64,000 bases of DNA. Origin: Owenia fusiformis. Lineage: Eukaryota > Annelida > Polychaeta > Sabellida > Oweniidae. Made by a program: the position numbers and the translations under genes. Location of the stretch: the NCBI GenBank assembly GCA_903813345.2, contig CAIIXF020000003.1, positions 13,034,931 through 13,098,930 of the forward strand, written 5' to 3'. The notes under the pieces were generated by a model. It was given only the letters and a program-made list of their open reading frames with translations, had not been told where the DNA came from and ran no database searches. The first letter of the stretch is position 1. Every line of letters begins with the position of its first letter. Shown here piece after piece: positions 1 through 51,863 of the stretch.

Positions 1-78
1 CGTTCAGGTTGCACAATGTCGGTGTGCAACGTCGTATAACGCGTCCCTTAGTCTAGAAGGTCATCGTGACCTGATTAC
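1..78 (+). repeat. R1 element fragment, interrupted by a second R1 copy
   Basis: These 78 bases match an internal part of R1 (about 26,013-26,090 in copy B and about 230-308 in copy A). At the sequence gattac the match stops and a new R1 terminus begins. R1 has therefore inserted into R1, at a TA, as the other copies also show. The rest of the host copy lies outside the window or is lost. Confidence 0.75.
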
Positions 79-811
79 CCCCCTATCACACCAAACTAGT
101 TCTTACCCGTTCTTGCCAGTCCTACGAAAACGTCGTAAAACGGGCTCAATCTGGCTGTGGTCGGGAAATATGTCTGAAATAATTAGCTTCTTCGTTCTTA
201 AACAGTCTTCAATACGTCCATCGCGTTCGCAGTTCGCTCAGGTCGCACCACTCGGTGTGCAACGTCGTAGAACGCGTCCCTTAGTCTAGAAGGTCAACAT
301 GACCTGATTACAGAACGTTATGGTCGCCATCGAATTTTGAATCGATTCAAAATTCTAAAATCACATTCCCGTCTGAGAACGTTCATAAAGTTCGTAAATA
401 GACCTTAGAAAGTTGCAGCTACGTTCATTCCGTTCGAACACAGTTTAAAACCAGTTTTGAAGAACGCAGTAGCAACTTGTTTGGTGTGATAGCTATATTT
501 TTGCTTACTCGTTCATAAGCAGTGTTAGATACGTTCTTAATCAGTTTAAACCCGTTTGCAATTAGTTCTACCTCGTTCTCAACACGTCCTCAGACAGTTC
601 AACTCGTTGTTAAAACGTCCCTAGTAGGATTGAAGTACGACGGTTCCGTTCGTAGTACGTCCAGCTCGTCGTTAGTACGTTGTCACTCGTTCTAATTGTA
701 GAACGTGCCGACCACGAGAACATTTTGAGCATTGTCTAAGTTCTAGAGGACCTACCCGTTCGAGTACGTTCGATGAAGTTTGTAAATAGATCCCAAACGG
801 TTCTTAGTAGG
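79..811 (+). mobile_element. R1 TIR element, copy A, 3' end missing
   Basis: It begins with the R1 terminus CCTATCACACCAAACTAGTT and is colinear with complete copy B (25,855-26,664) at high identity up to about 808. The last ~70 bp, including the right TIR, are absent and unrelated sequence follows. It has no coding capacity and is therefore non-autonomous. The interior is dense in CGTT, CGTC and ACGT motifs, see Findings. Confidence 0.8.
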
Positions 812-2590
812 TCCAACTATATTAATGTTGGCCATATGACATTGATAGAATGTGTGACATTACATGGACTTCAATTTGAATCCCGGTCAATGTAATATCT
901 GATACGATCCTTCGGGAGGACATTTAATAGTAAAATGATGTAATCTGGTGCTGACGCATGACAGGTTACAAAGTAGCTTTGTAAAACTATTCCAATGTGA
1001 TATATCAAATGCTGTCGTTATGTGTAGGATTCACGAATCCATTTGCATTCGTTCGACTTCACTTAGAAGAGAGATTCTGTTAAACAGTAGCCTACAGCCT
1101 TTGTGGTCAAATACTGGTAGATTACACTCCAAATACAATAACAAAATTCCAAAAACTGACCTACACGTTTCGATGACGTCCATGGTCTGATTGTTATTGC
1201 TACGAGCAAAATATTATCTTCCCTAAAATGATCACATAATAAAGAAATACATTGCACACGCATCTTCGAATTCCTAGTGGTTGGAGCAACTAGGAGATGT
1301 CGCACACGCATTCATTCTACTTTATAGTCAACATACATTCAATGTTACAAATAGCTGAAACTAATATCAAATTTTATGTTATACTCGGCAAATAGCGAAC
1401 ATTCGTCATGGGACTGACCCTGGTGGGTGACGTCTGGCAGGTTTGAAATATCTCGAACCTTCCTTTCTATTACTGTTATGGTTATAGCGAGATTGCATTA
1501 ACTTGTTAGGAGTTTGGATTAATGGTCTTTCCAAAGACGTATAGTAATTGGAAAAAATGAATTCATGCTAAAAATACGTAGTCTGGTCTTTCTTTTGCAA
1601 TTATTGTTTCCTCACCCCGGAATAGTCTGACAACGGTACAGTCAGATACCGTTGTCACAAATGGCAGATTGTCATGAACTGTATGTTAAATAGAGCACCT
1701 AGACTAAATTCCATTGGAATAACAATCAATTAAAGTGTCTTCACTCATTGTACAGTTAAAGCTACACATCGCTCAAGAACACAATCTTGGGTTGTTCAAG
1801 GGTCAACTGTAAGATTTTTAGCTTTAATGAAAGTACAATTTAATTTGGCGTATTTAGCAAAGTATATACAATGGTGAAAGAATGGGGCAAATCTTGTATA
1901 CAAATAATCACGATAAATGTGTCAATAGGGAGGTTAAGATTAGCGTAGAAATATACGTGTCCCTATCCCTATCCGTATGTTTGTTACGGATACGTAACGC
2001 GGATTGGATAATGAATAATGCGGATTGGAAAATGAGTTTAAGATTAAAGTAAAAGGCTACGAAACCGTATGCTACAATTTATGATAAAATTAACATCCTA
2101 ATTATAGAAGGAAAACGTACCATGTTGTATACCATGTCCATTCGGTGACGTATAATATATGGATGGTTATAAAGACTGGGTCAAATCTGCCAGGTGGTTT
2201 ACTAGAAGCGGAATAAAAGCTGTAAACTTACGGACTGAGATGTCCAAGTTCATATTTTTTAGTCCATTCTCGTGATTTCTCAGTATATGTACCTCAGAGC
2301 CACTCAGACTATTAACAGTAAGTAAACTGTGTATAAACAAGCCATAAAATGACAAATCCAGAACAGGAACGTGGTCATATTGTAAATGATAAGGTTTCAA
2401 ACGCAATGTCGTTAGACGACTACGTATGAATTCTATGGACGGCATCGTGTTGTATTAGATGTACATTAGGTATTTTGCGGACGGTTACGTGTATGTACAT
2501 CTTTCAAGTTAAGGTTGCTAGTTCTGATAGCCTCTTTCCATGTAATTGTTATAATGGCTAAGAAATGGAATATTGAATTGCTTATATTTG
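812..2590. other. AT-rich intergenic sequence, no gene recognised
   Basis: Only short scattered open frames occur, none with a recognisable domain. A patch at 868-925 (a tttgaatcccggtc motif, then a ccttcgggaggaca motif) vaguely recalls a SINE or LINE tail but is too short to call. A short hairpin repeat at 1,614-1,670 is listed separately. Confidence 0.5.
1614..1670 (+). repeat. Short dispersed repeat with an 11-bp stem, copy 1
   Basis: The stem TGACAACGGTA / TACCGTTGTCA encloses an 8-base loop. A second, slightly diverged copy with the same flanking words (ccggaatag... and ...cacaaatggc) lies at 4,586-4,642. It is probably a terminus or remnant of a small DNA element. Confidence 0.55.
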
Positions 2591-3514: not shown

Positions 3515-3720
3515 TGGCAAGTCATATGACAGAATATTCCTCCCATTGAAATAACAGAGGACGCGAAAAATGGCTTTGAAGCTCTGTAACCTTAGTGTTC
3601 ATAAGTAAACTGAACACTTAGCGTACAAAAGAGAATTCAATTTTCTATATAAAAATATTTTTTGGTGAATCTTTTACTGGATAGATATCCTGAAATGAGA
3701 TTTGCCCCGAACCAACCAAA

Positions 3721-3940
3721 TTTCTGATACACTGTGATCGCAGTCGGGATCGTCTGAAGTGATTAATAGGGATGTTACCATATTAATCATGATAAACAGT
3801 GGGTGTAGGTCGGATTGCCCGATTGTTATTGATATCCCTGCATTATACTTCGCATGTACTGTGTTTTAAAGTCCAGAGTTTGAAAATGTTTGCCAAATGT
3901 TGATCTGTTTCATCAATAAGGTTATCTATGGATATTGGAT
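3721..3940 (+). repeat. Inverted long-range duplicate of 44,945-45,175
   Basis: Read in reverse complement, 44,945-45,175 gives the same ordered words: CACTGTGATCGCAGT, TATTAATCATGATAAACA, TGTAGGTCGGATTGCCCGAT, CCTGCATTATACTT, GTTTCATCAATAAG, with indels between them. This is a diverged interspersed repeat or old duplicated segment, lying here between the two halves of R2 copy 1. Confidence 0.6.
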
Positions 3941-4244
3941 ATGATAGCTAATTATAGTCAAAACGACAACCTCTTGAAATGGTTTCAAATCAAGAGAAGA
4001 CTTCGGTTTTCAATACCCGACAGACCAACTTCATAACTGCTTTTTAAATAAGAATTGGTTCATCACAAAGTAGTTGGTACACTGTTTCTTGATAAGTGAT
4101 TCTGTATTGGCATAACATTTCAGTAGTTTGCCCAAAATGTATACATGTATCACCACAGTGATTACTTGTTGCAAGAAAAAACATTCGTCAACTACTTCAG
4201 GACTAAATACGTGTTGATACTAGCTACTGTATATATTTCGTGTT

Positions 4245-5417: not shown

Positions 5418-6433
5418 CAGGGTGTCCCGGAACTCATGATAATTTTTGAGGGAGATATGAGGCATACATGATTTTTCTTTGAATTTGGTGCACTAGTTAA
5501 ACATACATTGGGGAATAACTGGCCTGAATTCTGGGTACATATCTTTCATATTTTCGAATTTATTGACATTTGAATTCTACATCGCCAAAAAACCCGGAGT
5601 TGTCAGAAATATGTCACATTTTGTCAATTCATACACACATTTTTTTGTATTAGATTAGTTGAGCATGTTCCTCATATTTATTAAGCACTTTGATAAAATG
5701 ATATAAACATTTTGATAGAGACCCCATACATCAACGGATTGTATATTTGGTTCGGTGAAGGATCATATGACATGTTCCCGTGAGGGACTAAACGAAATGT
5801 CCCATTTGCTTGGCAATATGATTTTGCATATTGACAATGCATCAGTGCATAAGTCACTACATGTCAGTATTTCACCCAGTTTACTTTCTACTGAGACTAT
5901 TACTTTATATATATAGCTCCATATTCTTGTAAGATGTTTCTCTACGAGACTTTCATTTCTTTTGGGACCTTAAACAAAGATTAGTGGGCCATGTCTCTGA
6001 AACAGAGGAGGAATTAAATCATGTTGCTTCAGGGGAGCCTATGGGAATGGATAACAGCAATTCAGAATGTGTATAAAGAGTAGCTGAAAAGACATCAACT
6101 GCAGATAGTATACTACAAGGAGAACTACTCTGAAGAGATACGTTAGCTAATGTAGCGAAATGCTGAAATAATTCAATAAAACCAATGCTGTTATAGTAGA
6201 GAAGTTGTGTAAATATTATCAAAATGTGACCTAAATTGTTGTATTTCTCTGACTACACCGGGCTTGGTGGCGGTGTAGTATTCAAATATCAATAAATTCG
6301 AAAATATAAAAGATACGTGCTTGAAATTCATGTCACTTATTCTTCAATGTATGTTTAATAAGTGCACTAAATTTGAGGAAAAATCATATATGCCTTATAT
6401 CTCCCTCAAGAAGATCTGTTCTGGGACACCCTG
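5418..6433. mobile_element. R3a foldback MITE (CAGGGTGTCCC ends), 1.0 kb
   Basis: The ends are CAGGGTGTCCC...GGGACACCCTG. The arms stay similar for about 165 bp (5,418-5,583 against 6,265-6,433), sharing GAGGGAGATAT, AAACATACATTG and TTTTCGAATTTATTGA. There is no coding capacity. It sits inside R2 copy 1, so it arrived later. It shares only its terminal motif with R3b, R3c and the element at 60,486, suggesting one transposase moving unrelated interiors. Confidence 0.85.
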
Positions 6434-10818: not shown

Positions 10819-10864
10819 TGATATCTAAAGACGTTCAACGATTACGACAAGAATACAATTTGCG

Positions 10865-12106
10865 ATGAGTCTCGATGGCACATTTAATTATTCAATTGAA
10901 GGAAATAACAATGGTTCGGAATCGACGCTTGGAGGAGGAATTTATGAGATACAGGATAATGATTTGACAAACTTGATGCAAAATGAAAGTTCGTATTATG
11001 AATATGAACAGGATTTTTCACATATATATCCACTTGTTTCCGTTCTAAACATGTACATCACCCCAGTTATCATCATCGTTGGACTGATCGGAAATTTCAT
11101 ATCATTCATGATTTACGGAGTTGGAATCCAAAGGCACCAGTCGTCCAGTGTATATTTGGCTTCTATCGCAGTTTCCGACTCGGTGCTCCTTATGACCGTA
11201 TTCGGAACCTGGGTAGAACATTTCAACGTAAATGCATATAATCGTAGCGTCCTGTGTCAGATGAACATATACCTATCTTATACATGTGGGTTTCTTTCGG
11301 TTTGGTTCCTCGTCTGCTTTTCTACTGAACGCTACATCGCCGTCTTTTTCCCGTTTAAGCGGCACATCATGTGTACAGAAAGACGCGCCAAAGCTGTGGT
11401 CATAACGGTAACACTCATAGGACTGTTGACGTACTGTAGTACACTGTGGACAACTGGGTTGATATATTTTCAAGAGAGATGGCAATGTGCACAGTTAGAG
11501 GGCACTCATCACTACCACTCCGCCCTTACGTACATTGACATAGCCATAACCTTCTTCATCCCATTCCTCTTGATATTGGTCCTTAACTGTAGTATCATAT
11601 ACAAGATAGCGTTGTTCTATCGGCATCAGGGAGGAAACGCCGCTAGTGCTACAAATAGCGCCACTGGATTGATACTAAGGAGGTGCTCAGGTCGCAGCGG
11701 TGAAGAACATAATGTTCAAATGAAAGTCACTGTCGTCCTTGTAGTCATTTCAATAGCTTTCCTTGTCCTAAATCTACCGAGTTACAGCTTGCGAGCACTT
11801 GTTCTGCTTTCTCCAAGGATTCACACGGACATGTCATTAGCTGCCGATGGTATAGTTCTCCTACAGCAAGTTTGCCAGGAGCTCTATTACACAAGTTTTG
11901 CCATCAACTTTTTTCTATATATTTCCTGCTCGAAACAATTCAGACTTTCCTTCGTTAAATATGTCAAAATGTTTCGACATAGTTTTGTCGCGTGTTGCAA
12001 GAAATGTCGCATAAGTTCACGGAAACGACTAAGAACTGAATCTACAACGTCGAGCCTACCTGCAGCCCGTAAAACACAAACAATCAATCTCACGAACCTT
12101 AAATAA
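10865..12106 (+). CDS. Rhodopsin-family (class A) peptide-type G-protein-coupled receptor
   Basis: A complete 413-residue receptor in one exon. The N-terminus (1-58) is hydrophilic with sequons at N8, N16 and N40, plus N126 in the first outer loop. Helices lie at about 59-84 (GN at 76-77), 96-117 (LASIAVSD), 131-157 ending in ERY (155-157, the DRY equivalent), 176-200, 221-248 (P233), 287-314 (NLP, P305) and 330-353 (NFFLY at 349-353 in place of NPxxY). C131 and C208 are placed for the conserved disulphide. The basic tail has a Cys cluster (377, 378, 381), likely palmitoylated. No N-terminal signal peptide is needed or seen. It would sit in the plasma membrane and couple a probably peptide ligand to G proteins. 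The overall pattern recalls invertebrate FMRFamide/TRH-type receptors, but the ligand cannot be assigned. It is the only intact host gene here and is absent from the paralogous block II. Confidence 0.9.
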   Translation: MSLDGTFNYSIEGNNNGSESTLGGGIYEIQDNDLTNLMQNESSYYEYEQDFSHIYPLVSVLNMYITPVIIIVGLIGNFISFMIYGVGIQRHQSSSVYLASIAVSDSVLLMTVFGTWVEHFNVNAYNRSVLCQMNIYLSYTCGFLSVWFLVCFSTERYIAVFFPFKRHIMCTERRAKAVVITVTLIGLLTYCSTLWTTGLIYFQERWQCAQLEGTHHYHSALTYIDIAITFFIPFLLILVLNCSIIYKIALFYRHQGGNAASATNSATGLILRRCSGRSGEEHNVQMKVTVVLVVISIAFLVLNLPSYSLRALVLLSPRIHTDMSLAADGIVLLQQVCQELYYTSFAINFFLYISCSKQFRLSFVKYVKMFRHSFVACCKKCRISSRKRLRTESTTSSLPAARKTQTINLTNLK

Positions 12107-14389: not shown

Positions 14390-16120
14390 TGCTGGTGTGA
14401 AAAACGTAACAATGACGTTGAATTTTTACCAGTTTGGTTCATTTGCAACGTAATATAAACGGTAAAATTTAACGTTGTCGTAACGTTTTTTAAATGTGTA
14501 AAATATTTGTAAGTGCAGGAAACATTACAAAGACGTTGCAGTTCTCACCAAATTGTTTCATTTGCTACGTAATATAAACGGTAAAATTTGACGTTGTCGT
14601 AACGTGTTTTAAATGTGAAAGATATTTGTAAGTGTAGAAAACGTTACAAAGACGTTGTGTTCTCACCAAATTTGGTACATTTGCTACGTAATGTAAACGG
14701 TAAAATTTGACGTTGTCGTAACGTGTTTTAAACGTGAAAGATATTTGTAAGTGTAAAAAACGTTACAAAGACGTTGCACTTCTCACCAAATTGTTTCATT
14801 TGCTACGTAATATAAACGGTAAAATTTAACGTTGTCGTAACGTTTTTTAAATGTGTAAAATATTTGTAAGTGCAGGAAACATTACAAAGACGTTGCAGTT
14901 CTCACCAAATTGTTTCATTTGCTACGTAATATAAACGGTAAAATTTGACGTTGTCGTAACGTGTTTTAAATGTGAAAGATATTTGTAAGTGTAGAAAACG
15001 TTACAAAGACGTTGTGTTCTCACCAAATTTGGTACATTTGCTACGTAATGTAAACGGTAAAATTTGACGTTGTCGTAACGTGTTTTCAACGTGAAAGATA
15101 TTTGTAAGTGTAGAAAACGTTACAAAGACGTTGCACTTCTCACCAAATTGTTCCATTTGCTACGTAATATAAACGGTAAAATTTGATGTTGTCGTAACGT
15201 GTTCTAAATGTGAAAGATATTTGTAAGTGTAAAAAACGTTACAAAGACGTTGTGTTCTCACCAAATTTGGTACATTTGCTACGTAATGTAAACGGCAAAA
15301 TTTGACGTTGTCGTAACGTGTTTTAAATGTGAAAGATATTTGTAAGTGTAGAAAACGTTACAAAGACGTTGCACTTCTCACCAAATTGTTTCATTTGCTA
15401 CGTAATATAAACGGTAAAATTTGATGTCGTCGTAACGTGTTCTAAATGTGAAAGATATTTGTAAGTGTAAAAAACGTTACAAAGACGTTGCGTTCTCACC
15501 AAATTTGGTACATTTGCTACGTAATGTAAACGGTAAAATTTGACGTTGTCGTAACGTACGTGTTTTAAATGTGAAAGATATTTGTAAGTGTAGAAAACGT
15601 TACAAAGACGTTGCAGTTCTCACCAAATTGTTACATTTGCTACGTAATATAAACAGTAAAATTTGACGTTGTCGTAACGTGTTTTAAATGTGAAAGATAA
15701 TTGTAAGTCTAGGAAACGTTACAAAGTTCTTGTTTTCCCACCAAATTGGTTCATTTGCCACGTAGTGAAAATGGCTAATTGTAACGTTGTCAAAACATGG
15801 TTTGAATGTGAAAAATATTTGTAATTGTAACACACGTTACAAAGACGTCATTTTCTGACCAAAATGGTTCATTTTCAACGTAGTGCAAACGGTTAATTTC
15901 AACGTTGTCGAAACCTGTTTTCAATTGAAATGTAAAAAAATATTTGTAAGTGCAGGAAACGTTACAAAAAGACGCTATGTCCTCACGAAATTGGTTTATT
16001 TGCAACGTTGTCGAAACAGTTAATTTTGACGTTGACGAAACGGGGTTTAAACGTGAAAAATACATATACATGTATGTGAAAAAGAACGTGACAAAGACGT
16101 TGTGGTCTCAACAAATTCGT
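14390..16120 (+). repeat. 119-bp tandem array inside R4 (about 14-15 units)
   Basis: The landmark acaaagacgtt recurs near 14,525, 14,645, 14,764, 14,883, 15,002, 15,121, 15,240, 15,359, 15,478 and 15,602, then in decayed form to about 16,095. Each unit holds several ACGT cores, several of them 11 bp apart. The stretch 14,450-14,806 is repeated almost exactly one 357-bp (three-unit) step later, a higher-order repeat. Units at the interior edge are most diverged. Confidence 0.95.
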
Positions 16121-22449: not shown

Positions 22450-25200
22450 GTTAGTCATTACTATCACTATATCTTGTTGATGGCATAATTAAGGTTACTA
22501 GAACATTCCTTGCATGTGTTGTCCTAACTTGATGTAACCAGAAGTTATGAATTTGCCATGTATGTGACAAGCACGTTACAGTCTCTTTATTTTGGCAAAG
22601 TCGTTGTTAAGGTTGGTACTACATTCCTGGCTCGTGATATCTAAGTCGAACGTAACTTTTATACTCATTTATGCGTGTCCACACTTTCCTTTGCCTACAA
22701 CGTTCTATAGTTAATGTTACCAGAACTTTAACTTGGCCACGTATATGTGACGTTGCATTAGCACGTTACAGTCTGTTATTTTATTTTTGCAGTCATTGTA
22801 AGGTTGCTACTACATTCCTAGCACATGATATTTAAGTAAAATGTAACGTTGTATAAACATCTGTGCGAGTCCAGACCTTCCTGTGCCTACATCGGTCCAA
22901 GACAAACGTTACCAGAACTTTAAACTGGCCAGGTATATGTTACGTTCAAAGCACATTACAGTTTCACTATTTTTGCGAAGTCATTGTTAAGGTTGGTTCT
23001 ACATTCCTGGCACGTAATATTTAAGTCAAATGTAACGTTCTTTAAACATCTGTGCGAGTCCACACCTTCCTGTACCTACAACGTTCCATAATTAACGTAC
23101 CAGAACTTAAAACTGGCCACGTATATGTGACGTTGCATAAGCACATTACAGTCTCGTTATTTTTGCGAAGTTATCGTTTAGGTTGGTTCTACGTTCCTGG
23201 CACGTGATATTTAAGTCAAATGTAACGTTCTTTGAACATCTGTGCGAGTCCACAACTTCCTGTACCTACAACGTTCCATAATTAACGTATCAGAAATTTA
23301 GATTGGCCACGTATTTATGACGTAATGTAAGTACGTTACATTTTCGTTATTTTGGCGAAGTCATCGTCTAGGTTGGTTCCACGTTCCTGGCACGTGATAT
23401 TTAAGTCAAATGTAACGTTCTTTAAACATCTGTGCGAGTCCACACCTTCCTGTACCTACAACGTTCCATATCAACGTTACCAGAAATTTAGATTGGCCAC
23501 GTATATATGACGTAATGTGAGTACGTTACATTTTCGTTATTTTGGTGACGTAATTGTTAAGGTCGCTACTACGTTCCTGACACGTGATATTTAAGTCAAA
23601 TGTAACGTTCTTTAAACATCTATGCGAGTCCACACCTTCCTGTACCTACAACGTTCCATATCAACGTTACCAGAAATTTAGATTGGCCACGTATATATGA
23701 CGTAATGTAAGTACGTTACAGTTTCGTTATTTTGGCGACGTAATTGTTAAGGTCGCTACTACGTTCCTGACACGTGATATTTAAGTCAAATGTAACGTTC
23801 TTTAAACATCTGTGCGAGTCCACACCTTCCTGTACCTACAACGTTCCATATCAACGTTACCAGAAATTTAGATTGGCCACGTATTTATGACGTAATGTAA
23901 GTACGTTACATTTTCGTTATTTTGGCGAAGTCATCGTTTAGGTTGGTTCTACGTTCCTGGCACGTGATATTTAAGTCAAATGTAACGTTCTTTAAACATC
24001 TGTGCGAGTCCACACCTTCCTGTACCTACAACGTTCCATATCAACGTTACCAGAAATTTAGATTGGCCACGTATTTATGACGTAATGTAAGTACGTTACA
24101 TTTTCGTTATTTTGGTGACGTAATTGTTAAGGTCGCTACTACGTTCCTGACACGTGATATTTAAGTCAAATGTAACGTTCTTTAAACATCTATGCGAGTC
24201 CACACCTTCCTGTACCTACAACGTTCCATATCAACGTTACCAGAAATTTAGATTGGCCACGTATATATGACGTAATGTAAGTACGTTACAGTTTCGTTAT
24301 TTTGGCAACGTTATTGTTAAGGTCGCTACTACGTTCCTGACACGTGATATGTAAGTCAAATGTAACGTTCTTTAAACATCTATGCGAGTCCACACCTTCC
24401 TGTACCTACAACGTTCCATATCAACGTTACCAGAAATTTAGATTGGCCACGTATATATGACGTAATGTAAGTACGTTACAGTTTCGTTATTTTGGTGACG
24501 TAATTGTTAAGGTCGCTACTACGTTCCTGACACGTGATATTTAAGTCAAATGTAACGTTCTTTAAACATCTATGCGAGTCCACACCTTCCTGTACCTACA
24601 ACGTTCCATATCAACGTTACCAGAAATTTAGATTGGCCACGTATATATGACGTAATGTAAGTACGTTACAGTTCCGTTATTTTGGCAACGTTATTGTTAA
24701 GGTCGCTACTACGTTCCTGACACGTGATATGTAAGTCAAATGTAACGTTCTTTAAACATCTGTGCGAGTCCACACCTTCCTGTACCTACAACGTTCCATA
24801 TCAACGTTACCAGAAATTTAGATTGGCCACGTATTTATGACGTAATGTAAGTACGTTACATTTTCGTTATTTTGGTGACGTAATTGTTAAGGTCGCTACT
24901 ACGTTCCTGACACGTGATATTTAAGTCAAATGTAACGTTCTTTAAACATCTATGCGAGTCCACACCTTCCTGTACCTACAACGTTCCATATCAACGTTAC
25001 CAGAAATTTAGATTGGCCACGTATATATGACGTAATGTAAGTACGTAACAGTTTCGTTATTTTGGCGACGTCATTGTTAAGGTCGCTACTACGTTCCTGA
25101 CACGTGATATTTAAGTCAAATGTAACGTTCTTTAAACATCTGTGCGAGTCCACACCTTCCTGTACCTACAACGTTCCATATTTAACGTTGCTACAACTTG
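22450..25200 (+). repeat. 190-bp tandem array at the right end of R4 (about 14-15 units)
   Basis: The landmark gtacgttaca recurs every 190 bp: 23,331, 23,521, 23,711, 23,901, 24,091, 24,281, 24,471, 24,661, 24,851 and, with one change, 25,041. Older forms lie at about 22,570, 22,760, 22,951 and 23,141. Units toward the TIR are nearly identical and those toward the interior are diverged. Variant patterns (tttggtgacg, tttggcaacg) recur at 380 and 570 bp, showing multi-unit duplications. The unit differs in sequence from the 119-bp array, but both are rich in ACGT. Confidence 0.95.
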
Positions 25201-25365: not shown

Positions 25366-25854
25366 TATATACTATTATATAATTTACATGTATTGTACGA
25401 GGTGGAAACCTTGCAAATGAGTTCCTATTTTATTTAATGATTCCAATTGCTTTGCAGGTTAATATGAGCATTTTGCTGTTTACACGTGAAGAATATGACA
25501 CTTCAAATCGCATCTGTTAAATGGTGATTAAAATGCTCTATGTTCCCGACTGATGAAGGATAGTTATCGTCCACAATGATTTACTTAATCAGTAATAGAT
25601 TATTTATAAATTGATCGCATCCCATCATATTTCAAACATAATGAAGGGTAAAAGGACAAACATAAACACACTGACGATAATTGTATGCTAAAGTAACAAA
25701 AGAACGTGATAGAAGTCTGAACACAATGTATTTTTGCTGTATTAAGTCCAGAACATAAATAAAACAATGAACTGAAAGGCAGAAAATATGGCATTGAGAT
25801 GTCGCTCCTATTAGTAATTTGGTTTTTCTCTGGAATCGCGTCTTCGATTTCCTA
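25366..25854 (+). repeat. Block I, continuation beyond the R3c insertion
   Basis: Homology to block II resumes directly after the R3c right end. Shared words include TTTACATGTATTG/TTTGCATGCATTG, GACTGATGAAGG/GACTGATAAAAGG, CAGAACATAAATRAAACAATGAAC and AAGTCTGAACACAAT/AAATCTAAACACAAT. No gene was recognised. It ends at or near R1 copy B. Confidence 0.7.
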
Positions 25855-26664
25855 ACCCCCCTATCACACTAAACTATTCCTTACCCGTTCTTGCCAGTCC
25901 TACGAAAACGTCGTCAAACGGGCTCAATCTGGCTGTGGTCGGGAAATATGTCTGAAATAATTAGCTTCTTCGTTCTTAAACAGTCTTCAATACGTCCATC
26001 TCGTTCGCAGTTCGTTCAGGTCGCACCACGTCGGAGTGCAACGTCGTAGAACGCGTCCCTTAGTCTAGAAGGTCAACATGACCTGATTACAGAACGGTAT
26101 GGTCGTCATCGAATTTTGAATCGATTCAAAATTCTAAAATCACATTCCCGTCTGAGAACGTTCATAAAGTTCGTAAATAGACCTTAGAAAGTTGCAGCTA
26201 TGTTCATTCCGTTCGCACACAGTTTAAGACCAGTTTTGAAGAATGCAGAGGCAACTAGTTTGGTGTGATAGCTATATTTTTGCTAACTCGTTCATAAGCA
26301 GTGCTAAATACGTTCTTAATCAGTTTAAACCCGTTTGCAATTAGTTCTACCTCGTTCCCAACACGTCCGCAGACAGTTCAACTCGTTGTTAAAACGTCCC
26401 TCGTAGGATTGAAGTACGACGGTTCCGTTCGTAGTACGTCCAGCTCGTCGTTAGTACGTTGTCACTCGTTCTAATTGTAGAACGTGACGACCACGAGAAC
26501 ATTTTGAGCATTGTCTAAGTTCTAGAGGACCTACCCGTTCGAGTACGTTCGATGAAGTTTGTAAATAGATCCCAAACGGTCCTTAGTAGGTCCAGTCCGT
26601 TCGTATGCAGTTGAAGCCCGTTTTCGAGAACGCAGTGAGAACTAGTTTTGTGTGATAGTAGGGT
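25855..26664 (+). mobile_element. R1 TIR element, complete copy B, 810 bp
   Basis: It runs from ACCCCCCTATCACAC to GTGTGATAGTAGGGT and is flanked by TA at 25,853-25,854 and 26,665-26,666, the duplication typical of Tc1/mariner-type elements. No coding capacity. It is the reference copy for the motif spacing described in Findings. Confidence 0.9.
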
Positions 26665-26761
26665 TAATCACTGTTAGACAATATCGTCTAGCTTTTAGAA
26701 ATGTTATCGGTTTGGAATTTGTTGATTTGTAAATAAAACTGTAAGTCATGCATGTAGACCA

Positions 26762-35654: not shown

Positions 35655-38600
35655 TTATTGGGTCTGGGGTTTATATACACATTTTAAAAGACCCTTTACA
35701 CATTTATCAAACTTAAAAGCTTCTTCTTGTCCCCACAATGTAAAAATGTCCTCACCTAAGGCCCAACATGTTTTAATTTGCACACTGGCTGATAGAAGAC
35801 CCGACGATAGTGCTGGATTACATTTTTCAATAACATTTTTATAAAAAGTATTTCTATCATTACCAAAGAAAGGGCAAACAAAAAGTCTATGTTGGATGGT
35901 GTCTTTTACATTTTTATCACATAACGTACATATTCCATTTCCCTGTCCCCATTTTTCGTATTCTGTTTGTAAGCCAAAACACCCTGATCTAGCTTTGAAC
36001 TTTAATTTTTGCCCATAGAAGTCAAAATCTGTGGTCAGGTAGTTTTTTAAGAAGGGATGGGGATTTAGACATCGATACAGTGAGAGTGAAGACTTTTCAT
36101 TCAATGCAGATTTAAAATTATTAAGCCTTTCTTGATCTGATATTTTGATAAGGGCCTGATACCAGTCAATATCATCTCTGTAGATAACATCATCCAGTCC
36201 ATATTTTGTTAGGATGGATTTTATGTTTGAAAAGTAAGGGAATGCTTTGCTTTCATCATTAGCACAGAAGCCATCATACATAGAATTAAATATCTTTTTG
36301 TGTAATGACCCTTCTTTGATATTACATTTTAGATATATAAAGTAATCTATTTGCCTTTTTTCAATGACATCAACAAGAGGTCTCCAGCCTAAATCACCTA
36401 AAAGTGCTTCTCTGGCTGGGCAACACCTAATTTGGAGAATTGATCTCCCAATATTATATTGCATTGATTTCATTTTATCCGTGTTAGTTTTGTTTAACAT
36501 GAATATAGGACAGCCATGAAGAATGGCAGGGACAAACATTGAGTTGTACATTTTCTCCCCAAATTTGAGACGCATGACATTACAGTGTTTTGTCAAAGTG
36601 GAGACTATCATACCTTGAATTCGTTTAGATTTTTCAGCAAGGAAGTCAATGTGGCCAGAGTCTTTTAGAGACCGATCAAAATATATCCCTAGATACTTAT
36701 AACTTTTAACCTCAAATAATTCATGGCTGCCTAAGATCCATTTTTTATTTTTGTCAATTCTTTTCCCAATGACCATAACCTTTGATTTTTTAGGGCTAAA
36801 ATTGAACCCCCATTTAATAGAAAAGATGTCAGCAATTTTTAACATTCTGTTCATTGTAGATTCATTTTCGGCAAGTAAAACAACATCATCGGCGAACATA
36901 AGAACTGGGACCTTTTCATTTTCAAAAGGTAACCCTATATCTTCATTGTTGAACATTTCAACAAGGTCGCTCATAACAAGGGAAAACAGAGTCGGGGAGA
37001 GGCAGCAACCCTGTTTTAGGCTGTAGACAGGGTTGCACTCTTCCCACTCTGTTGAAATTGTTCCAAAAATCACTTTGCTTTTAACTCCCACATATAATTC
37101 CCTCAAAATGCGCCAGACTTTGCCTTGAATCCCCTTTTCCCATAATCGTAAAAATAAAAGGTCCCTGTTGACCACGTCGAAGGCTTTAGAGATGTCCAAA
37201 AAAGATAAATAGGTCTTAAGGTTGTTGTTTTTCCTCATGCTACAGATACCTTTGAGGGCAAAAATATGATTTTCTAATCTCAAACCTGATCTAAAGGCGC
37301 CTTGCAAGTCACCCAAAACGTTATTAACTTCGAAAAACTTCAAGATCTTAGATTCCATAATAGAGGTGAAAAGCTTGTAAATGTTAGAGTTTATTGTTAT
37401 GCCTCTATAGTTGTCAAGTATTTCCTTATCTGAATTCTTGTGAATGGGAAATAAAAGACCTTCTTTCCATTCTTTTTGTTCTCTGATCTTCACTTGATAA
37501 AATATTTCAGATATTGATTTAATTATAATAGGCCCCCCTTGCTTCAGAAATTCATTTGGAATTTGATCTGTTCCACATGCTTTACCATTACTTAACCCTT
37601 TGATACATTCGGAAACTTCACCTTCATCAAATGTAACATCAAATAAAGCATTGTCTGAAAATGTAGATGACATATGAAGCTCTCTAAGTTGCTGAGACAA
37701 GTCTGTTTTTACTGAACGATCATTTACATTGTTGGGACCAACATTTTTCCAGTATTTAGCAATTGACTGAGATACTTTCCGAGGGTCAGTTATTATACAT
37801 TTTGGGTCATCTGGGTCTTTTATTTGTATTGGGTGTCCTGCTTTTGCATTGAACATTTTTAATGTTTTCCAAAAAGATTTTGAATTAGATTTCTTTGAGG
37901 CATTCTTTGTGATAGTCTTAATATGGTTTTGAATGTGTACTTGTTTAATCTTATCACGAACTTGCTCTTTTCTTTGAATATATAAATCCCACATTTCTTG
38001 CAGCACATTGGGGTCGCATGTTTTGGCGCGTTTCCAATACCTAAAGAAACGACATGCTTCCCTTCTATTTTTGATTAATTGTTTGATTTCTTCATTCCAG
38101 AATGATACATAGTTGGGGGAGATTACCTTAGTTCCCACGGACCCATAGGCTGCCTCTTTGACTTTACCCTTCCAAACTGCCCATGCTTCCTCAATATTAG
38201 AGTATAATGAAATATCCCAGGAATTAAATTGTTTTGTTATAAGTTGCTGGAACTTTGTCCAGTCTGTATTTTCTGAGATTTTCCAACTTGGTGTTTTAAT
38301 TACTTCATTTGACATTTTATTTTTAGATTTGGATTTAGAATCTGACCCGCAACAAGAGCCTTCAACAACAAGAAAAGCGTGGCTGCTGCCAATAGACACA
38401 TCGTGATTTTCATGAATAACCATTTTATCATAAATACTCATAAATCTGTCATTGACCAAAATATAATCAAGTGTGGATGACTGGTTGTTGCGGGCCCATG
38501 TTACCTCACCTTCACATTCTTCAGTTAAATTAAGTATAGTACAATTGGTTGCCTCACTGAGGACTTCTATGAATTTACCATTGTGACTGCTTTGACCACT

Positions 38601-39200
38601 ATTGAATACTTTTATGCGTCCATTAAAGTCACCCATAAGGAGGGTACATTCGTTGCTATTATCAAATTGAGAAATGTCTTTGATTAGTTCCTCAGTAAGG
38701 GCTTCTGTAAGAGCAGGATTCTTCCCATCATTTGGAAAGTATGCAACTCCAACATTAAGAATTACATTGACTATCTTTACCTTTAACCAATATCTTTCAA
38801 ATTCATCATTAAGTGAATCTAAGTGGTTTTCTTTTAAAATAGTAACTTTATCTCTTTTTATGAAAAAACCAACACCACCACCAGATCTATTGACTCTGTT
38901 CTTACCAAACCATTCATATTCCTTATTACTGACAGTAGGGGTATTCGAGTCTTTGAAAAATGTTTCACACACTCCTACAATGTCAAACTGTTTCATTGAC
39001 AGAAGATTATCAAGCTCGTGTTGTTTTGCTAATCCTAAGTATTCTACATTGTTGAATGCGATACTTAAAGGAAAATTGGCATTGTTCTTGCGTTTGTGTG
39101 CACCCCTTCGTGAACGTTTATGTAATTTACGAGGCTTTGTGTGTGATCTAGGGACATTATCTTTGCATTGTGGGGATGGGGCGATAACTTCACCAAGAAT
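35655..39200 (-). CDS. LINE ORF2: AP endonuclease, reverse transcriptase, C-terminal CCHC
   Basis: Open from the ORF1 stop (39,201-39,203) for 1,181 codons. The first ATG is at 38,996 (1,113 aa), but that Met lies inside the endonuclease: the 68 codons before it include the family's start strand (LSIAFNNVEYLGLAKQHEL). Numbered from that Met, endonuclease motifs are ETFF (11-14), MGDFNGR (121-127), TLDYIL (175-180) and SSHAFLV (204-210, where SDH is usual). Reverse transcriptase follows: NYRGITINS (529-537), LQGAFRSG (564-571), FLDISKAFD (599-607), LKQGCCLSPTLF (660-671), FADD (701-704) and YKYLGI (766-771). A C-x2-C-x10-H-x4-C finger lies at 1023-1041. The protein nicks target DNA and primes reverse transcription there. 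Translation probably needs re-initiation or TAG read-through, since ORF1 is in the same frame. Confidence 0.95.
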   Translation of the reverse strand: MLGEVIAPSPQCKDNVPRSHTKPRKLHKRSRRGAHKRKNNANFPLSIAFNNVEYLGLAKQHELDNLLSMKQFDIVGVCETFFKDSNTPTVSNKEYEWFGKNRVNRSGGGVGFFIKRDKVTILKENHLDSLNDEFERYWLKVKIVNVILNVGVAYFPNDGKNPALTEALTEELIKDISQFDNSNECTLLMGDFNGRIKVFNSGQSSHNGKFIEVLSEATNCTILNLTEECEGEVTWARNNQSSTLDYILVNDRFMSIYDKMVIHENHDVSIGSSHAFLVVEGSCCGSDSKSKSKNKMSNEVIKTPSWKISENTDWTKFQQLITKQFNSWDISLYSNIEEAWAVWKGKVKEAAYGSVGTKVISPNYVSFWNEEIKQLIKNRREACRFFRYWKRAKTCDPNVLQEMWDLYIQRKEQVRDKIKQVHIQNHIKTITKNASKKSNSKSFWKTLKMFNAKAGHPIQIKDPDDPKCIITDPRKVSQSIAKYWKNVGPNNVNDRSVKTDLSQQLRELHMSSTFSDNALFDVTFDEGEVSECIKGLSNGKACGTDQIPNEFLKQGGPIIIKSISEIFYQVKIREQKEWKEGLLFPIHKNSDKEILDNYRGITINSNIYKLFTSIMESKILKFFEVNNVLGDLQGAFRSGLRLENHIFALKGICSMRKNNNLKTYLSFLDISKAFDVVNRDLLFLRLWEKGIQGKVWRILRELYVGVKSKVIFGTISTEWEECNPVYSLKQGCCLSPTLFSLVMSDLVEMFNNEDIGLPFENEKVPVLMFADDVVLLAENESTMNRMLKIADIFSIKWGFNFSPKKSKVMVIGKRIDKNKKWILGSHELFEVKSYKYLGIYFDRSLKDSGHIDFLAEKSKRIQGMIVSTLTKHCNVMRLKFGEKMYNSMFVPAILHGCPIFMLNKTNTDKMKSMQYNIGRSILQIRCCPAREALLGDLGWRPLVDVIEKRQIDYFIYLKCNIKEGSLHKKIFNSMYDGFCANDESKAFPYFSNIKSILTKYGLDDVIYRDDIDWYQALIKISDQERLNNFKSALNEKSSLSLYRCLNPHPFLKNYLTTDFDFYGQKLKFKARSGCFGLQTEYEKWGQGNGICTLCDKNVKDTIQHRLFVCPFFGNDRNTFYKNVIEKCNPALSSGLLSASVQIKTCWALGEDIFTLWGQEEAFKFDKCVKGLLKCVYKPQTQ

Positions 39201-40568
39201 CTAGAACCGGTTGAAATCTTGGTGCCCTTGGTCCACCATCCTGTTTGCAGGACATCTTGAGACTTTGTGTCCAAGCTGATTGCACCCACGGCAACGTACG
39301 GTGGCAGGGTGCCAACATGAGCTAGTGAGGTGGCTGGCCTCCCCACATTTGATGCATCTTAAGGAGTGTCCTTGTTGAGGTTTAGATTGTTCGTGAGTTG
39401 TCGCATCTGTTTGATTATTGGGAGATTGGCGAGCGTTATTTCTATGTTTCTTGTTCACTGTTGTCCAGTCATTGGTTCCATGATTGAGGTCATCATTATT
39501 GTTATTATTATCTTGGTTCTGTTGATTCTGTTTGTTGAAGGCATTCTTGTTACGGTTATAGTACGGTTTGGTAATGTCCTTGCCTTTCGTTTTGAGCTTC
39601 ATATTGATAGCCAATCGGTTTGTTCCTGGTTTCGATAAGTGGAGGCCATCACCATGTAAAAACCCATCATTAATGGAATTGTCTTGGAGCTTAAACGAGA
39701 GGTCATTGTTTATGAAAGTGACACTTGCATCTTCATCAGAGCAGATGCCTTGTAGTGTGGCATTGACAGTGTCAACCTTTTCTTGGGCTGCTGGTTTATC
39801 TGTGCGAGGGCATATACTAGACACAACTACTTCATTAGCAATGTTTTTGGCTCCTTTGATAAGCAGCTGGTATTGTTTAGCGATATCTTCTGGGGTGTTA
39901 TCTTTGCTGCAGTCGTTGCTACCTACTTGGAGAATGACCCTGTCATATGAAGCATTATTGTCCGTCAGTGATTTATGTACATCGTCCACTGTTCCACCTC
40001 GAATGCATTCAACTTCTGTGTTATGCAGTTTATTTGTATCAAAGTCTCGAATAATTGAGCTTCCGATAACCAGTGTCTTTGGTAATCCAGACTCAGTGCT
40101 ATGAGTTTTTGACAGCTGTGAGCGTAACTCTCGGCATTCTTTGTCTAGTTCGCAACATTGTGCTGTTTTCATAGCTAGCTGACTGACCAAGTCCGCATTA
40201 GTCTTTTGTAGGCCCTGCATCAGCTTATTTGTTGTATCTATACTAGACTGCATGGTGGATAGTGCTTTAAGGACTGCTGTTACATCATTCTTTGTTGTAA
40301 GTGACTTCTTTGGTCTCCCTTTGGTTTTTGGGGTCTTAGATATAATAGCACGTGGTCTCAGAGTTCGTATGGCACTAGCATCAACACTGCTAGTTTCCCC
40401 CTCCCTCTCATCTTCAGATTCCAGTTGTGTTTCTTGGATCAGATTGACTGATGTAGTGAGGCCAGAGGTCATTGAAATGTCACCTTGTTCTGATTGTGTT
40501 GGTGACTGTGAGCCCAATAGTTGGCTTACAGTTGGAGAATCAGACTCTGAAGCAATATTAGTAGCCAT
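39201..40568 (-). CDS. LINE ORF1: coiled coil, SGNH esterase-like domain, two CCHC knuckles
   Basis: 455 aa. Residues 1-75 are acidic, Ser/Thr-rich and probably disordered. A basic patch (80-94, KTPKTKGRPKKSLTT) precedes a predicted coiled coil (about 97-155). An SGNH-hydrolase-like domain runs about 164-325, with block I LVIGSSII (166-173), the GSND block (216-219) and HGDGLH (305-310) giving the Asp/His pair. An Asn/Gln-rich linker leads to two C-x2-C-x4-H-x4-C knuckles (405-418 and 426-439). By family, it is an RNA-binding chaperone of the retrotransposition particle; the esterase's role is unsettled. The start is the first ATG after the 5' UTR, about 312 nt from the element's 5' end. It ends in TAG in frame with ORF2. 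Confidence 0.93.
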   Translation of the reverse strand: MATNIASESDSPTVSQLLGSQSPTQSEQGDISMTSGLTTSVNLIQETQLESEDEREGETSSVDASAIRTLRPRAIISKTPKTKGRPKKSLTTKNDVTAVLKALSTMQSSIDTTNKLMQGLQKTNADLVSQLAMKTAQCCELDKECRELRSQLSKTHSTESGLPKTLVIGSSIIRDFDTNKLHNTEVECIRGGTVDDVHKSLTDNNASYDRVILQVGSNDCSKDNTPEDIAKQYQLLIKGAKNIANEVVVSSICPRTDKPAAQEKVDTVNATLQGICSDEDASVTFINNDLSFKLQDNSINDGFLHGDGLHLSKPGTNRLAINMKLKTKGKDITKPYYNRNKNAFNKQNQQNQDNNNNNDDLNHGTNDWTTVNKKHRNNARQSPNNQTDATTHEQSKPQQGHSLRCIKCGEASHLTSSCWHPATVRCRGCNQLGHKVSRCPANRMVDQGHQDFNRF

Positions 40569-40974
40569 ATCAAGCCAATTACTGGTCTACTGCAAGGTTG
40601 TCCTTATGAGCTTAGCCTACTGACTGAAGCCAATTAATCCAAGTGTTTATCAGCCTGTACTATTAGTTCTGAACTTTCTCAAAATATCCAGAAAAGTTTG
40701 TGCTAAAAACTCTTTTGGTACTAAAGTTTATTCTTTAAAAGTTTCTCTATGCGTTCTCAATATGTTCATGAATGTCTCTGCAAAAGTATGTGATCAGACT
40801 TTGCGTCCTTCTTGAGATTTTTGTAAATTTGTCTGGAGCAAAAATTGTGTGACTTTACACTTTACACTAAGCTACTATAGTAAGTAAATAAAAATTCAAA
40901 GGTAAAGAGGCTTTAACACGTAGTTCAATGGGGGAAAAAAGGTTGCCAAACTTATGGAGGGGAGTGTACTCGTA

Positions 40975-47366: not shown

Positions 47367-48795
47367 ATACAATATTGATCAAATACTATATATATTTTAT
47401 GTTTTATCCATTTGAAAGTCAGCATGTAGTTTCATCATATCTGAATATCGACTTACATCTTTAGGAAATAGATTTAAAATTTGAATGGGGATGAGTCTGT
47501 CATTGTGCTTTCACATTTACACATACAGTAACTGAAATCGTTTGGTTTTCGATGCCTTTTTAAAAATATTTAAAATTCGGGTATCACACTGACAAATTGG
47601 CTAATTTATCTAATCAAAGACGATAAGGCCATCGGATGGGTTACTTAGGAGAGAGGGATTTACATCGCCCATGTAGAAATCCCCTAAATTGGAATAAAAG
47701 CCAACATTTTTAATGACCCCTTTTATTCTTGATTTTATTGACTCATTTTCAATGTTACAGTCTTGCCTATTAAGATTTTGATGAAACATGTATCCGGGTA
47801 TGTTTTTTTAAATTCCAAGAGAAGATGAGCATACGTACATGTATCTAGAGTCTGCAGTGAGTAGTACCTTTTCGACGTTTTATCAGCGTTTATTTATTCC
47901 AAAATACACTTGGTAAAAACATTTCTTGCTCTGACATTTTCACCAACACTGGGTAGCTTAAAGTGTCTGTGCGATGCTCATCAGAATACAGTATAGAAAC
48001 TATACACGTTGAGTTGATCCTGTTACATAACTCAATGCTTTTTAAAATCTTACAACCAAAAGGCATTGAACCATGAGGTGATTTTGAGAAGCGTTACTCC
48101 TTTCTGGCCAATCAGAGTACAGTATAACATGAACACTTTTGAATTTACATTCGAGTTGCATAACACATTGCCGATTAAAATCCATAACCGGTTCTGATCG
48201 TGACGTCATGTTTTTTCCGGGAAATCTTACTTTGGCACTGAAAGACAATCAGATGAAGATGTGAGTCTGTTGGTATACTGTTTCTACCAACCAATACCCA
48301 TTGAATTTATTTGTGTAAAAAAAATGGAAATTACTGAATTTGCACTTTAAGGTTTACTTGAAATAACATTCATGGAATCTTAGAGAAATTGACCATTGAA
48401 AATAAGGCGTGTGCAGACGTATTCGACGTTGACCTTGATCGCATTTTGAGTGTTTTGAATTTTTGTTTGGAAATAAGTCGGAATTCAAAATTTGAAGTGA
48501 AAAAATGATTTTGATTTTGGATTTTGTAATTACGACATGACTACCTGATAATAAGGTCAAGGTCATAACATCATATTTGGCAAGAATATCGATGTTGGAT
48601 TCTGGGAGACAATCCTCCTTGAGGTAAGTGGTGAAGTAGCTTTCTTGAAGTGGCTAGTTTGTCCCTTGAATGCGTTATTTCACATTCCAATCTGAATAAA
48701 CAAGATTATTATCGTCAGTTTGCACTTCTCAAACAAAAAGTCCTCGTTACTTGATCTACATTACTTGATTACGTGATCAAAGAAAATCAGTTATT

Positions 48796-50329
48796 TAGAA
48801 CTCAAGTATAAGAAAGCTAATTATTAGTTACAAGCTTACGAGACGAAATCTTATCAAGTTAAAATCAATCAATAGAATAATATTACTTTTTTATGGGAAA
48901 GAATTGTTCATTATGATGTGAAAACTCGGTAAAGTCCTATCCTATTAGGCGTTCGTGTCCCCATCCCAGGCAAGCAATCAGTGATCTGCACCCATGGGTT
49001 TCACAAGGATGATTAAATCAGATATTATTTTACTATTGTATCAATTGGGTAAAGGCAATGTTTTGTTTTGGCAGAGTTAGTGAAGACATTTCATAATGTT
49101 TGGTACATGTATGGTAAAAGAAAGTGATATTGACACTTGAATAAAAAGGGAGTGGGCTCCATACCTTGGAAAGGAGAAATGGAAGGCAAGGGATAATAAA
49201 TGGTAATGGTACATCGAGTTATTGGGCTTCTTCTTCAGGATGCAATGGGATGTGATTATGGCATATAGTGTATTTTAGTATTTCCATTATGGTCCCCGTT
49301 TTTTCACGGCGGTTGGTGATCGGCGGTTGGCGATCGGCGTCTATTACAACTATCAATAACTTCACAAATACGTACTGTTTACACTGACTAAATGTTTTTT
49401 AATAGAAATTGAAATCTGACTTTAGATTTAAGAAGTGACCTCCAGTGACCTTCTCAAGATCAAAAAAGGTTAAAAATGGTCGAAAAGACTTGCTTTAAAT
49501 TGACCACATTTATAGAAATCATTTACAAGTCCAAATATGACTTGAGATTTGAGATTTGACCTTCGATGACTTTCTCAAGGTCAAAAAGGTCAAACAGTTA
49601 TTTTTTCAAAATCATCTACAAGTTCTCAGAAGTTCAAATCTGATCATAGATTAAAGATTTGACCTTCAATTACCTTCTCAAGGTAAGAAAGGTTAACCTT
49701 TGATCATTTCCATTAAATCAGTCTATTTTCTCAATTATGTACAATATCATACTTTACACAATTACATGTACACTTCTCATAATATTTCACAAATCATTGT
49801 AAATACCATCATGTGGCACCTAATACTCCCTTTTGGGGGTAATAGCCACTACAACCTGCTGTAAATATGTTACATTGATTTTAATTTCAAAAAAGGTAAA
49901 AAGGTATTTTTCAACTTGTTTCAAATTGACCAATTTACAAAAATCATCTTCAAGGTCTGAGCAGTTCAAATCTGACTTAAGATTTAAGATTTGACCTTCA
50001 ATGACCTTCTCAAGGTCAAGAAAGGTCAAAAATGTATTTTTCAACTTGCTTCAGATTAATCAAATTTTATTTTCAAAATCATCTACAAGTTCTCAGAAAT
50101 TCAAATCTGACTTTAGATTTGAGATTTTACCTTCAATGACCTTCTCAGGGTCAAACAATTTCCTTTTTCAAAATCTCAGAAATTCAAATCTGATTTAAGT
50201 TTGAATTCATAGTATTGTGAGCAACTAGGTGGTGACATTTTGTTAATGCCTTGTTTTGACCTATTGACACCTAATCAAAGATATGGGTCATATATTGTAA
50301 AATTAGAACACGTATAATTTGGAATTATT
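48796..50329 (+). repeat. 1,534-bp tandem duplication, unit 1
   Basis: Repeats immediately as 50,330-51,863. By eye only two differences were seen: G at 49,478 against T at 51,012, and T at 49,950 against A at 51,484. The junction shows TT microhomology. Contains the TGACCTTCTCAAGGTCA-bearing internal repeats. Confidence 0.97.
49415..50215 (+). repeat. Diverged internal repeats with TGACCT(N5)AGGTCA cores
   Basis: Five units at about 49,450, 49,568, 49,670, 50,002 and 50,138 share AAATCTGACTTTAGATTTAAG, then TTGACCTTCAATGACCTTCT, then AAGGTCA. They recur in the duplicated unit (plus 1,534). Not coding. Confidence 0.8.
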
Positions 50330-51863
50330 TAGAACTCAAGTATAAGAAAGCTAATTATTAGTTACAAGCTTACGAGACGAAATCTTATCAAGTTAAAATC
50401 AATCAATAGAATAATATTACTTTTTTATGGGAAAGAATTGTTCATTATGATGTGAAAACTCGGTAAAGTCCTATCCTATTAGGCGTTCGTGTCCCCATCC
50501 CAGGCAAGCAATCAGTGATCTGCACCCATGGGTTTCACAAGGATGATTAAATCAGATATTATTTTACTATTGTATCAATTGGGTAAAGGCAATGTTTTGT
50601 TTTGGCAGAGTTAGTGAAGACATTTCATAATGTTTGGTACATGTATGGTAAAAGAAAGTGATATTGACACTTGAATAAAAAGGGAGTGGGCTCCATACCT
50701 TGGAAAGGAGAAATGGAAGGCAAGGGATAATAAATGGTAATGGTACATCGAGTTATTGGGCTTCTTCTTCAGGATGCAATGGGATGTGATTATGGCATAT
50801 AGTGTATTTTAGTATTTCCATTATGGTCCCCGTTTTTTCACGGCGGTTGGTGATCGGCGGTTGGCGATCGGCGTCTATTACAACTATCAATAACTTCACA
50901 AATACGTACTGTTTACACTGACTAAATGTTTTTTAATAGAAATTGAAATCTGACTTTAGATTTAAGAAGTGACCTCCAGTGACCTTCTCAAGATCAAAAA
51001 AGGTTAAAAATTGTCGAAAAGACTTGCTTTAAATTGACCACATTTATAGAAATCATTTACAAGTCCAAATATGACTTGAGATTTGAGATTTGACCTTCGA
51101 TGACTTTCTCAAGGTCAAAAAGGTCAAACAGTTATTTTTTCAAAATCATCTACAAGTTCTCAGAAGTTCAAATCTGATCATAGATTAAAGATTTGACCTT
51201 CAATTACCTTCTCAAGGTAAGAAAGGTTAACCTTTGATCATTTCCATTAAATCAGTCTATTTTCTCAATTATGTACAATATCATACTTTACACAATTACA
51301 TGTACACTTCTCATAATATTTCACAAATCATTGTAAATACCATCATGTGGCACCTAATACTCCCTTTTGGGGGTAATAGCCACTACAACCTGCTGTAAAT
51401 ATGTTACATTGATTTTAATTTCAAAAAAGGTAAAAAGGTATTTTTCAACTTGTTTCAAATTGACCAATTTACAAAAATCATCTACAAGGTCTGAGCAGTT
51501 CAAATCTGACTTAAGATTTAAGATTTGACCTTCAATGACCTTCTCAAGGTCAAGAAAGGTCAAAAATGTATTTTTCAACTTGCTTCAGATTAATCAAATT
51601 TTATTTTCAAAATCATCTACAAGTTCTCAGAAATTCAAATCTGACTTTAGATTTGAGATTTTACCTTCAATGACCTTCTCAGGGTCAAACAATTTCCTTT
51701 TTCAAAATCTCAGAAATTCAAATCTGATTTAAGTTTGAATTCATAGTATTGTGAGCAACTAGGTGGTGACATTTTGTTAATGCCTTGTTTTGACCTATTG
51801 ACACCTAATCAAAGATATGGGTCATATATTGTAAAATTAGAACACGTATAATTTGGAATTGCA
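50330..51863 (+). repeat. 1,534-bp tandem duplication, unit 2
   Basis: Second unit, followed by the single-copy flank that matches block I (attgcagc, about 12,835). Confidence 0.97.

Follow-up and report, generated by a model that had tools for sequence, protein, structure and literature searches.

In the 64,000-nt window (C3:13034931–13098930), the whole stretch of DNA analysed in this study, the element R1 carries short words with a GT core that recur about once per turn of the DNA helix. This phasing is real and extends more widely than the preliminary description of the window could see, reaching diverged R1 copies, long relatives of R1 and two further Harbinger-like regions. R1 is an internally deleted, non-coding MITE derivative of a PIF/Harbinger-type DNA transposon, and the phased words occupy parts of both ends of the parent element and are absent from its coding part. 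A mechanism in which a protein of the element would bind the words is plausible, and the phased arrays offer a reason why this MITE has retained 800 bp of non-coding sequence and has not shrunk to its terminal repeats.

The R1 element and its long relatives

The reference copy, copy B, occupies positions 25856–26663 on the plus strand and is 808 bp in length, with its ends set by the alignment of fetched copies. Comparison of the flanks across copies places the target-site triplet TAA at 25853–25855 on the left and TTA, with a middle base unlike that of the left triplet, at 26664–26666 on the right. Imperfect terminal inverted repeats of about 29 bp were aligned at both ends (25856–25884, plus strand; 26635–26663, minus strand). 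The two halves of R1 have around 125 bp in common at 75%, and R1 is thus partly a doubled unit. The element also contains a perfect 24-bp palindrome at 26111–26134, an exact pair that is also listed in 22 of 39 R1-matching loci. Three further copies are present in the window: copy A (78–815, plus strand; 96.6% over the aligned part), copy C (55947–56526, plus strand; 89% and 79% in its two aligned pieces) and copy D (56858–57634, minus strand; 87.6%). Copy A sits within an older R1 copy, adjoining an R1-like fragment at 1–78 with the insertion at TTA, and as the loci L004 and L009 have matching R1-like flanks as well, R1 inserts into itself. The preliminary description had called R1 a MITE, which is borne out by its short length, lack of coding sequence, high copy number, homogeneous size and terminal inverted repeats. 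An Rfam search of the whole window gave no family reaching the gathering score.

In the searched genome (498 Mb in 525 contigs) the 26-base right terminus of R1 has 3528 matches with at most three mismatches, whereas the same terminus read backwards has none, and 36 of the 49 rows listed, with the window row among them, have a length of 808 bp. Target sites were compared in 48 fetched two-ended copies, with the window row omitted as a duplicate of L001 and with L016–L018 having flanks in common. The left and right triplets are identical in 32 of these copies (20 TTA, 11 TAA and one TCA) and unequal in the others (13 TAA/TTA, two TTA/TAA and one CCT/TAA); 47 of the 48 copies have TWA or TCA directly beside R1, and the fourth base is variable. 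The duplication is therefore of 3 bp with a preference for TWA, as for PIF/Harbinger. Among the unequal triplets a left TAA with a right TTA (13) is far more frequent than the reverse (two), as if the element-adjacent middle base were supplied by the element or the donor side. Two other placements were rejected: piggyBac, considered since the ends begin with CCC, would require a TTAA duplication, which R1 does not have, and the plant PIF-like subgroup has terminal repeats starting with G(N)5GTT (PMC2213677), whereas the ends of R1 start with CCCCCCTATCACAC and CCCTACTATCACAC.

The placement of R1 as an internally deleted PIF/Harbinger-type element rests on long relatives with R1-like ends, TTA flanks and a transposase. 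The first relative, recognized on contig C1 from a DDE_Tnp_4 match near an R1 right terminus, is about 6.0 kb in length, with R1-like left and right ends of 79% and 80%, respectively. The second, on contig C8, was found via a transposase fragment 90% alike that of C1 and is about 5.6 kb in length, with left and right ends of 86% and 81%. Each has TTA on both sides; terminal inverted repeats are found at their right ends, and their left ends are alike. The DDE_Tnp_4 matches between the R1-like ends are on the minus strand (L073:2744–3496, E = 1.9e-31; L071:2017–2391, E = 7.6e-11), and the transposase reading frames are broken in both copies. A second reading frame, ORF1, is present in the C8 copy, where it is convergent with the transposase. 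ORF1 is a putative Myb/SANT-type protein. Its best Pfam match is a weak one to MADF (E = 0.013; a score of 16.3 bits where the cut-off is 22), its only matches among the sequences of solved structures are homeobox proteins with E values of 0.5 or worse, and its structure model is poor (pLDDT 55.8).

Elsewhere in the window, the reading frame at 10829–12106 is a rhodopsin-type receptor, a duplication with a step of 1534 bp lies at 48791–50624 (100% identical over the 300 bp compared) and two adjoining long reading frames of 1181 and 461 amino acids on the minus strand at 35655–40586 resemble, judged by eye, a LINE that encodes an endonuclease and a reverse transcriptase.

Helical phasing in R1, its relatives and other families

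The preliminary description proposed that CG-containing words in copy B are locked to the helical repeat. The 13 positions that it gave between 26289 and 26467 are all correct, as are the steps between them (22, 21, 21, 11, 20, 11, 22, 9, 11, 9, 11 and 10), and 12 of these words are CGTT or CGTC, the word at 26417 being CGAC. Its seven later positions fared less evenly: 26536, 26598 and 26619 are CGTT, 26547 should read 26546, and 26483, 26494 and 26577 are CGTG, CGAG and CGGT, respectively, so that the outer right CGTT words towards the right terminal repeat are those at 26536, 26546, 26598 and 26619 (26536–26622, plus strand). The same words do occur in copies A and D, but the diverged copy C, to which the description had extended them, has fewer, with four of ten right-side words in common with copy B and four words remaining against 11 in R1.

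The phasing itself was confirmed by comparison with dinucleotide shuffles. The 31 CGTY words in 25861–26652 have a power of 9.53 at a period of 10.3 bp, a value that was reached in none of 500 shuffles between 9.5 and 11.5 bp and in one of 500 when all periods between 5 and 30 bp are allowed. The core of the finding is the array at 26289–26470 on the plus strand, as judged from word positions, shuffles, chains and the ranking of 3-mers; in the right half CGTY has a power of 8.27 at 10.7 bp (0/500 shuffles). The words of the left half (25886–26213, plus strand) are more weakly phased, with 21/500 shuffles as high for CGTY and 0/500 for CGTT, and in the left stretch subjected to the chain test the longest chain has five words, which is not significant (152/300 shuffles). 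The CG dinucleotide on its own is weak (21/500), and [CA]GT[TC] is a better word, with a power of 12.5, where 16 is the maximum, in the right array of the consensus. The unit is rather A-NNN-[CA]GT[TC]C than the CGTT of the preliminary description. Coding was rejected as the source of the period, as copy B has no long reading frame and the spacing differs from 3.

The right array of the R1 consensus forms a chain in which 15 GTY words span 165 bp at steps of 9, 11, 10, 11, 10, 11, 11, 9, 11, 31, 11, 9, 11 and 10. Comparable chains are found in the long relatives: 20 words over 231 bp at the left of C8 (mean 10.50), 17 over 244 bp at the left of C1 (mean 10.61) and 13 over 145 bp, on the minus strand, in the inner right part of C8 (mean 10.36). 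The four chains have mean periods of 10.31–10.61, and none was equalled in 300 shuffles, whereas an outer chain of seven words at the right of C8 was equalled in ten of 300. In the spectra, CGTY is phased in the R1-like parts of the right ends of C8 and C1 (0/1000 shuffles each), while [CA]GT[TC] is the phased word in C8 left at 480–840 (4/1000, against 275/1000 for CGTY) and in C1 left beyond the R1-like part (0/1000, against 31/1000). No phasing was found in the 437-bp R1-like left end of C1 (CGTY 504/1000; [CA]GT[TC] 271/1000), in C1 right at 3680–4080 (401, 51 and 99 of 1000) or in the 3.4-kb coding part of C8 (438, 611 and 77 of 1000 for three words). The scan hits at 5701–6080 and 6301–6540 of L073 fall in a minisatellite outside the element, past its right end, and were excluded. 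When 77 units were folded on GTY, A was found at position −5 in 79%, C (61%) or A (25%) before GT, T or C after it, C as the next base in 56% and A at +6, which is the −5 place one turn on, in 69%; within each array, all of the words are on one strand.

Forty further copies were taken from the first 43 exact matches of the right terminus listed, all on C1, a selection that favours copies with a good right end, and 36 of them are phased by the criterion of at most 10/200 shuffles. The copies that fail are L038 (12/200), L040 (22/200), L063 (59/200) and L066 (200/200), and the last three contain only short pieces of R1. Among the 15 copies with less than 92% identity in the best match, 14 are phased, 11 of them at no more than 2/200, and L045, which is 71% alike in its best match, still reaches 9.99 of 13 at 10.1 bp. 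The autocorrelation against shuffles that the preliminary description had proposed, run on these 40 copies, gave peaks that persist in the diverged copies: the pooled lags of the 15 number 27 at 10–11 bp (shuffle mean 4.7, maximum 10) and 49 at 20–22 bp (mean 5.8, maximum 12), against five at 15–16 bp (mean 4.8). All 74 of the strongly phased CGTY windows in the window and L001–L074 are R1-like.

Ten further Harbinger-like regions, L075–L084, were scanned with [CA]GT[TC]. Phased windows were found in two, L075 (1521–1740) and L076 (1301–1580), where they adjoin inverted repeats resembling ends, and in none of the other eight (L077–L084), the ends of which are unmapped. Similarity to the R1-type transposase is 56% for L077, 53% for L078, 51% for L076 and 48% for L075; L077 and L078 are thus closer yet blank, and unless the fetched DNA missed their ends, a rule for the whole clade is disfavoured. 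L075 and L076 are the only families independent of the original finding. In L076 a right chain of 14 [ACG]GT words (0/200 shuffles) and a left chain of four [CA]GT[TC] words (1/200) were obtained, whereas the L075 case is weak, since its left chain of ten [ACG]GT words was equalled in 21/200.

In 142,598 bp of control DNA, composed of the window and L002–L030 with R1-like DNA masked, the same scan marked no phased window. A genome-wide habit was likewise rejected, since DNA masked for R1-like sequence and two satellites (136,497 bp) has a modest CGTY excess at lags 11 (16) and 21 (13) over a mean of 6.4 but no phased window. The window contains two ACGTT-rich tandem arrays, with 119-bp units at 14401–16062 and 190-bp units at 22569–25189; self-similarity at lag 11 has z values of 3.8 for the 190-bp and 2.9 for the 119-bp satellite.

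Possible explanations and constraint on the words

Sites phased along one helical face, as the preliminary description suggested, are still the most likely reading of the R1 words, although the binding of a protein to them is something that we infer. The best explanation, which we would put at about an even chance, is that the arrays serve as sites at which a Myb/SANT-like protein of the element itself binds. The ends of the parent carry runs of the unit A-NNN-[CA]GT[TC]C about one helical turn apart, and R1 has kept these end sequences. At each end, the putative Myb/SANT/MADF-like ORF1 protein would occupy neighbouring words along a single face of the DNA and bring in the transposase, which would cut at the terminal repeats and reinsert the element with a 3-bp TWA duplication; helical phase would then matter for transposition. 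Repetition of a unit of some ten bases at every turn fits a protein stacked along one face. In PIF/Harbinger elements, ORF1 has been credited with DNA binding and the transposase with cutting (PMC2836001), and the Myb-like protein of zebrafish Harbinger3_DR recognizes a 9-bp subterminal motif (PMC9710019). The core of the Myb motif YAACKG (PMC7172335) is AAC[GT], to which [CA]GTT is complementary; the likeness is a lead only, since Adf-1, a MADF protein, is reported to read other trinucleotide repeats (PMC11893794). It is a more tentative suggestion, and one that we consider doubtful, that a group of Harbinger transposons would assemble its transposition complex along one DNA face, with 13–20 consecutive weak sites per end, one per turn, coated by a Myb/SANT-like protein as a linear filament and with helical phase, more than exact sequence, being kept by selection across families; the closer but blank L077 and L078 make it somewhat less likely.

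Alternatively, the array may be what is left of a minisatellite whose unit, of about 10.5 or 21 bp, multiplied by duplication; it would have no function and would have been inherited by all R1-family copies, a reading that we regard as rather unlikely. Ten of 22 merged indel events of at least 4 bp between R1 and its relatives, counted by hand, are of 9–12 bp; this cluster, which includes young copies (L044, −11; L037, −12), is a sign of slippage between neighbouring units. TRF reports a 22-bp repeat at 26281–26335, and self-similarity at lags 11, 20 and 21 is partly left after the words are masked. At the base level no constraint was found, as the divergence of CGTY columns is 1.08 times that of the remaining columns (a ratio no higher was obtained in 533 of 798 label shifts). 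The preliminary description had held that decay of the motifs faster than their flanks would speak against its reading; in young copies the difference is in this direction, CGTY columns changing at 1.34 times the rate of other columns, but a ratio this high was reached in 59 of 798 label shifts, and selection would not be expected to act on copies once inserted. The ordinary base-level divergence also counts against the binding-site explanation, as do the weak matches and poor model of ORF1, the eight blank Harbinger-like regions, the unphased stretches of C1 and the order of steps, in which compensation of phase is not clear (470, 775, 47, 108 and 1240 of 2000 permutations as good).

The evidence for selection on the words is mixed, with right-end words above neutral simulation and left ends mostly not, and the right-end part of it stands against a functionless minisatellite. 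CGTY phase power exceeds nearly all neutral simulations (at most 15 of 400 as high) in eight of 13 comparisons, six of seven in the right half and two of six in the left, where the ends decay mostly like the simulation; the remaining five comparisons are within the neutral range (42–199 of 400), and [CA]GT[TC] stands at 20 of 400 or fewer in five of 13. In the right half, 93 of 125 CGTY words are shared with the relatives; for CG words of other kinds the figure is 50 of 132, and the median across 61 word classes is 0.50. In the left half, 59 of 102 CGTY words are shared (median 0.50). These counts are not independent tests, as the relatives have a common history and the one-sided simulation starts from R1 alone. 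The minisatellite explanation is further opposed by the position of the arrays in the ends and not in the coding part, and by the phased GT-core words at a near-equal period in two further families of unlike sequence.

Another explanation, also improbable in our judgement, is that helically spaced base steps and not words matter, through curvature, a positioned nucleosome or an architectural host protein. AA steps are phased in copy B (3/500 shuffles), and in the right array of R1 AA lies about half a turn from CG (5.1 versus 9.4 bp from GTY) and WW opposes SS (4.1 and 9.7), while at the right end of L076 SS (10.0) and WW (7.3) equal or exceed GT (6.8). However, in the R1-family arrays GTY is locked more tightly (R of 0.63–0.75) than WW (0.13–0.28), [CA]GT[TC] ranks above plain dinucleotides in the right half of R1, and the words keep to a single strand in each array. 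When all 3-mers were ranked by power, a GT-core word came first in six of seven segments, one of them tied (GGT with AAA in the right segment of L076), and AAA led in the terminal repeat of L075. This ranking, together with the shuffles of copy B, the 14 phased copies among the 15 diverged ones and the blank control DNA, contradicts a chance pattern from picking words post hoc, within the limit set by the common ancestry of the copies, and although the words were picked from the sequence itself, a choice for which single-sequence statistics cannot fully correct, we consider chance highly improbable.

Comparison with known systems

None of the papers listed by a literature search, with most subscription journals outside its scope, describes helically phased arrays in Harbinger ends. 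In PIF/Harbinger elements binding and cutting are split between two proteins, and end recognition in zebrafish is described as resting on one 9-bp motif. The R1 family resembles rice Ping/Pong with mPing and zebrafish Harbinger3_DR in the 3-bp duplication, the DDE_Tnp_4 transposase, the second reading frame and the high-copy miniatures, and differs from the published descriptions consulted on these elements in its runs of 13–20 words, about one per turn, over 145–244 bp. The PIF/Harbinger element MtPH-A6-4 of Medicago truncatula has a 60-bp tandem repeat with a triplicated 12-bp motif (AAACNNCTTATT), which would correspond to one motif per 20 bp or so if evenly spaced; unlike R1, it has long clean repeats, a different word and a plant host. 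The subterminal repeats of hAT (Ac/Ds) and CACTA (En/Spm) elements present, as in R1, many short words near both ends, which in those elements are bound by the transposase, but they belong to other superfamilies with other proteins, and their spacing is irregular.
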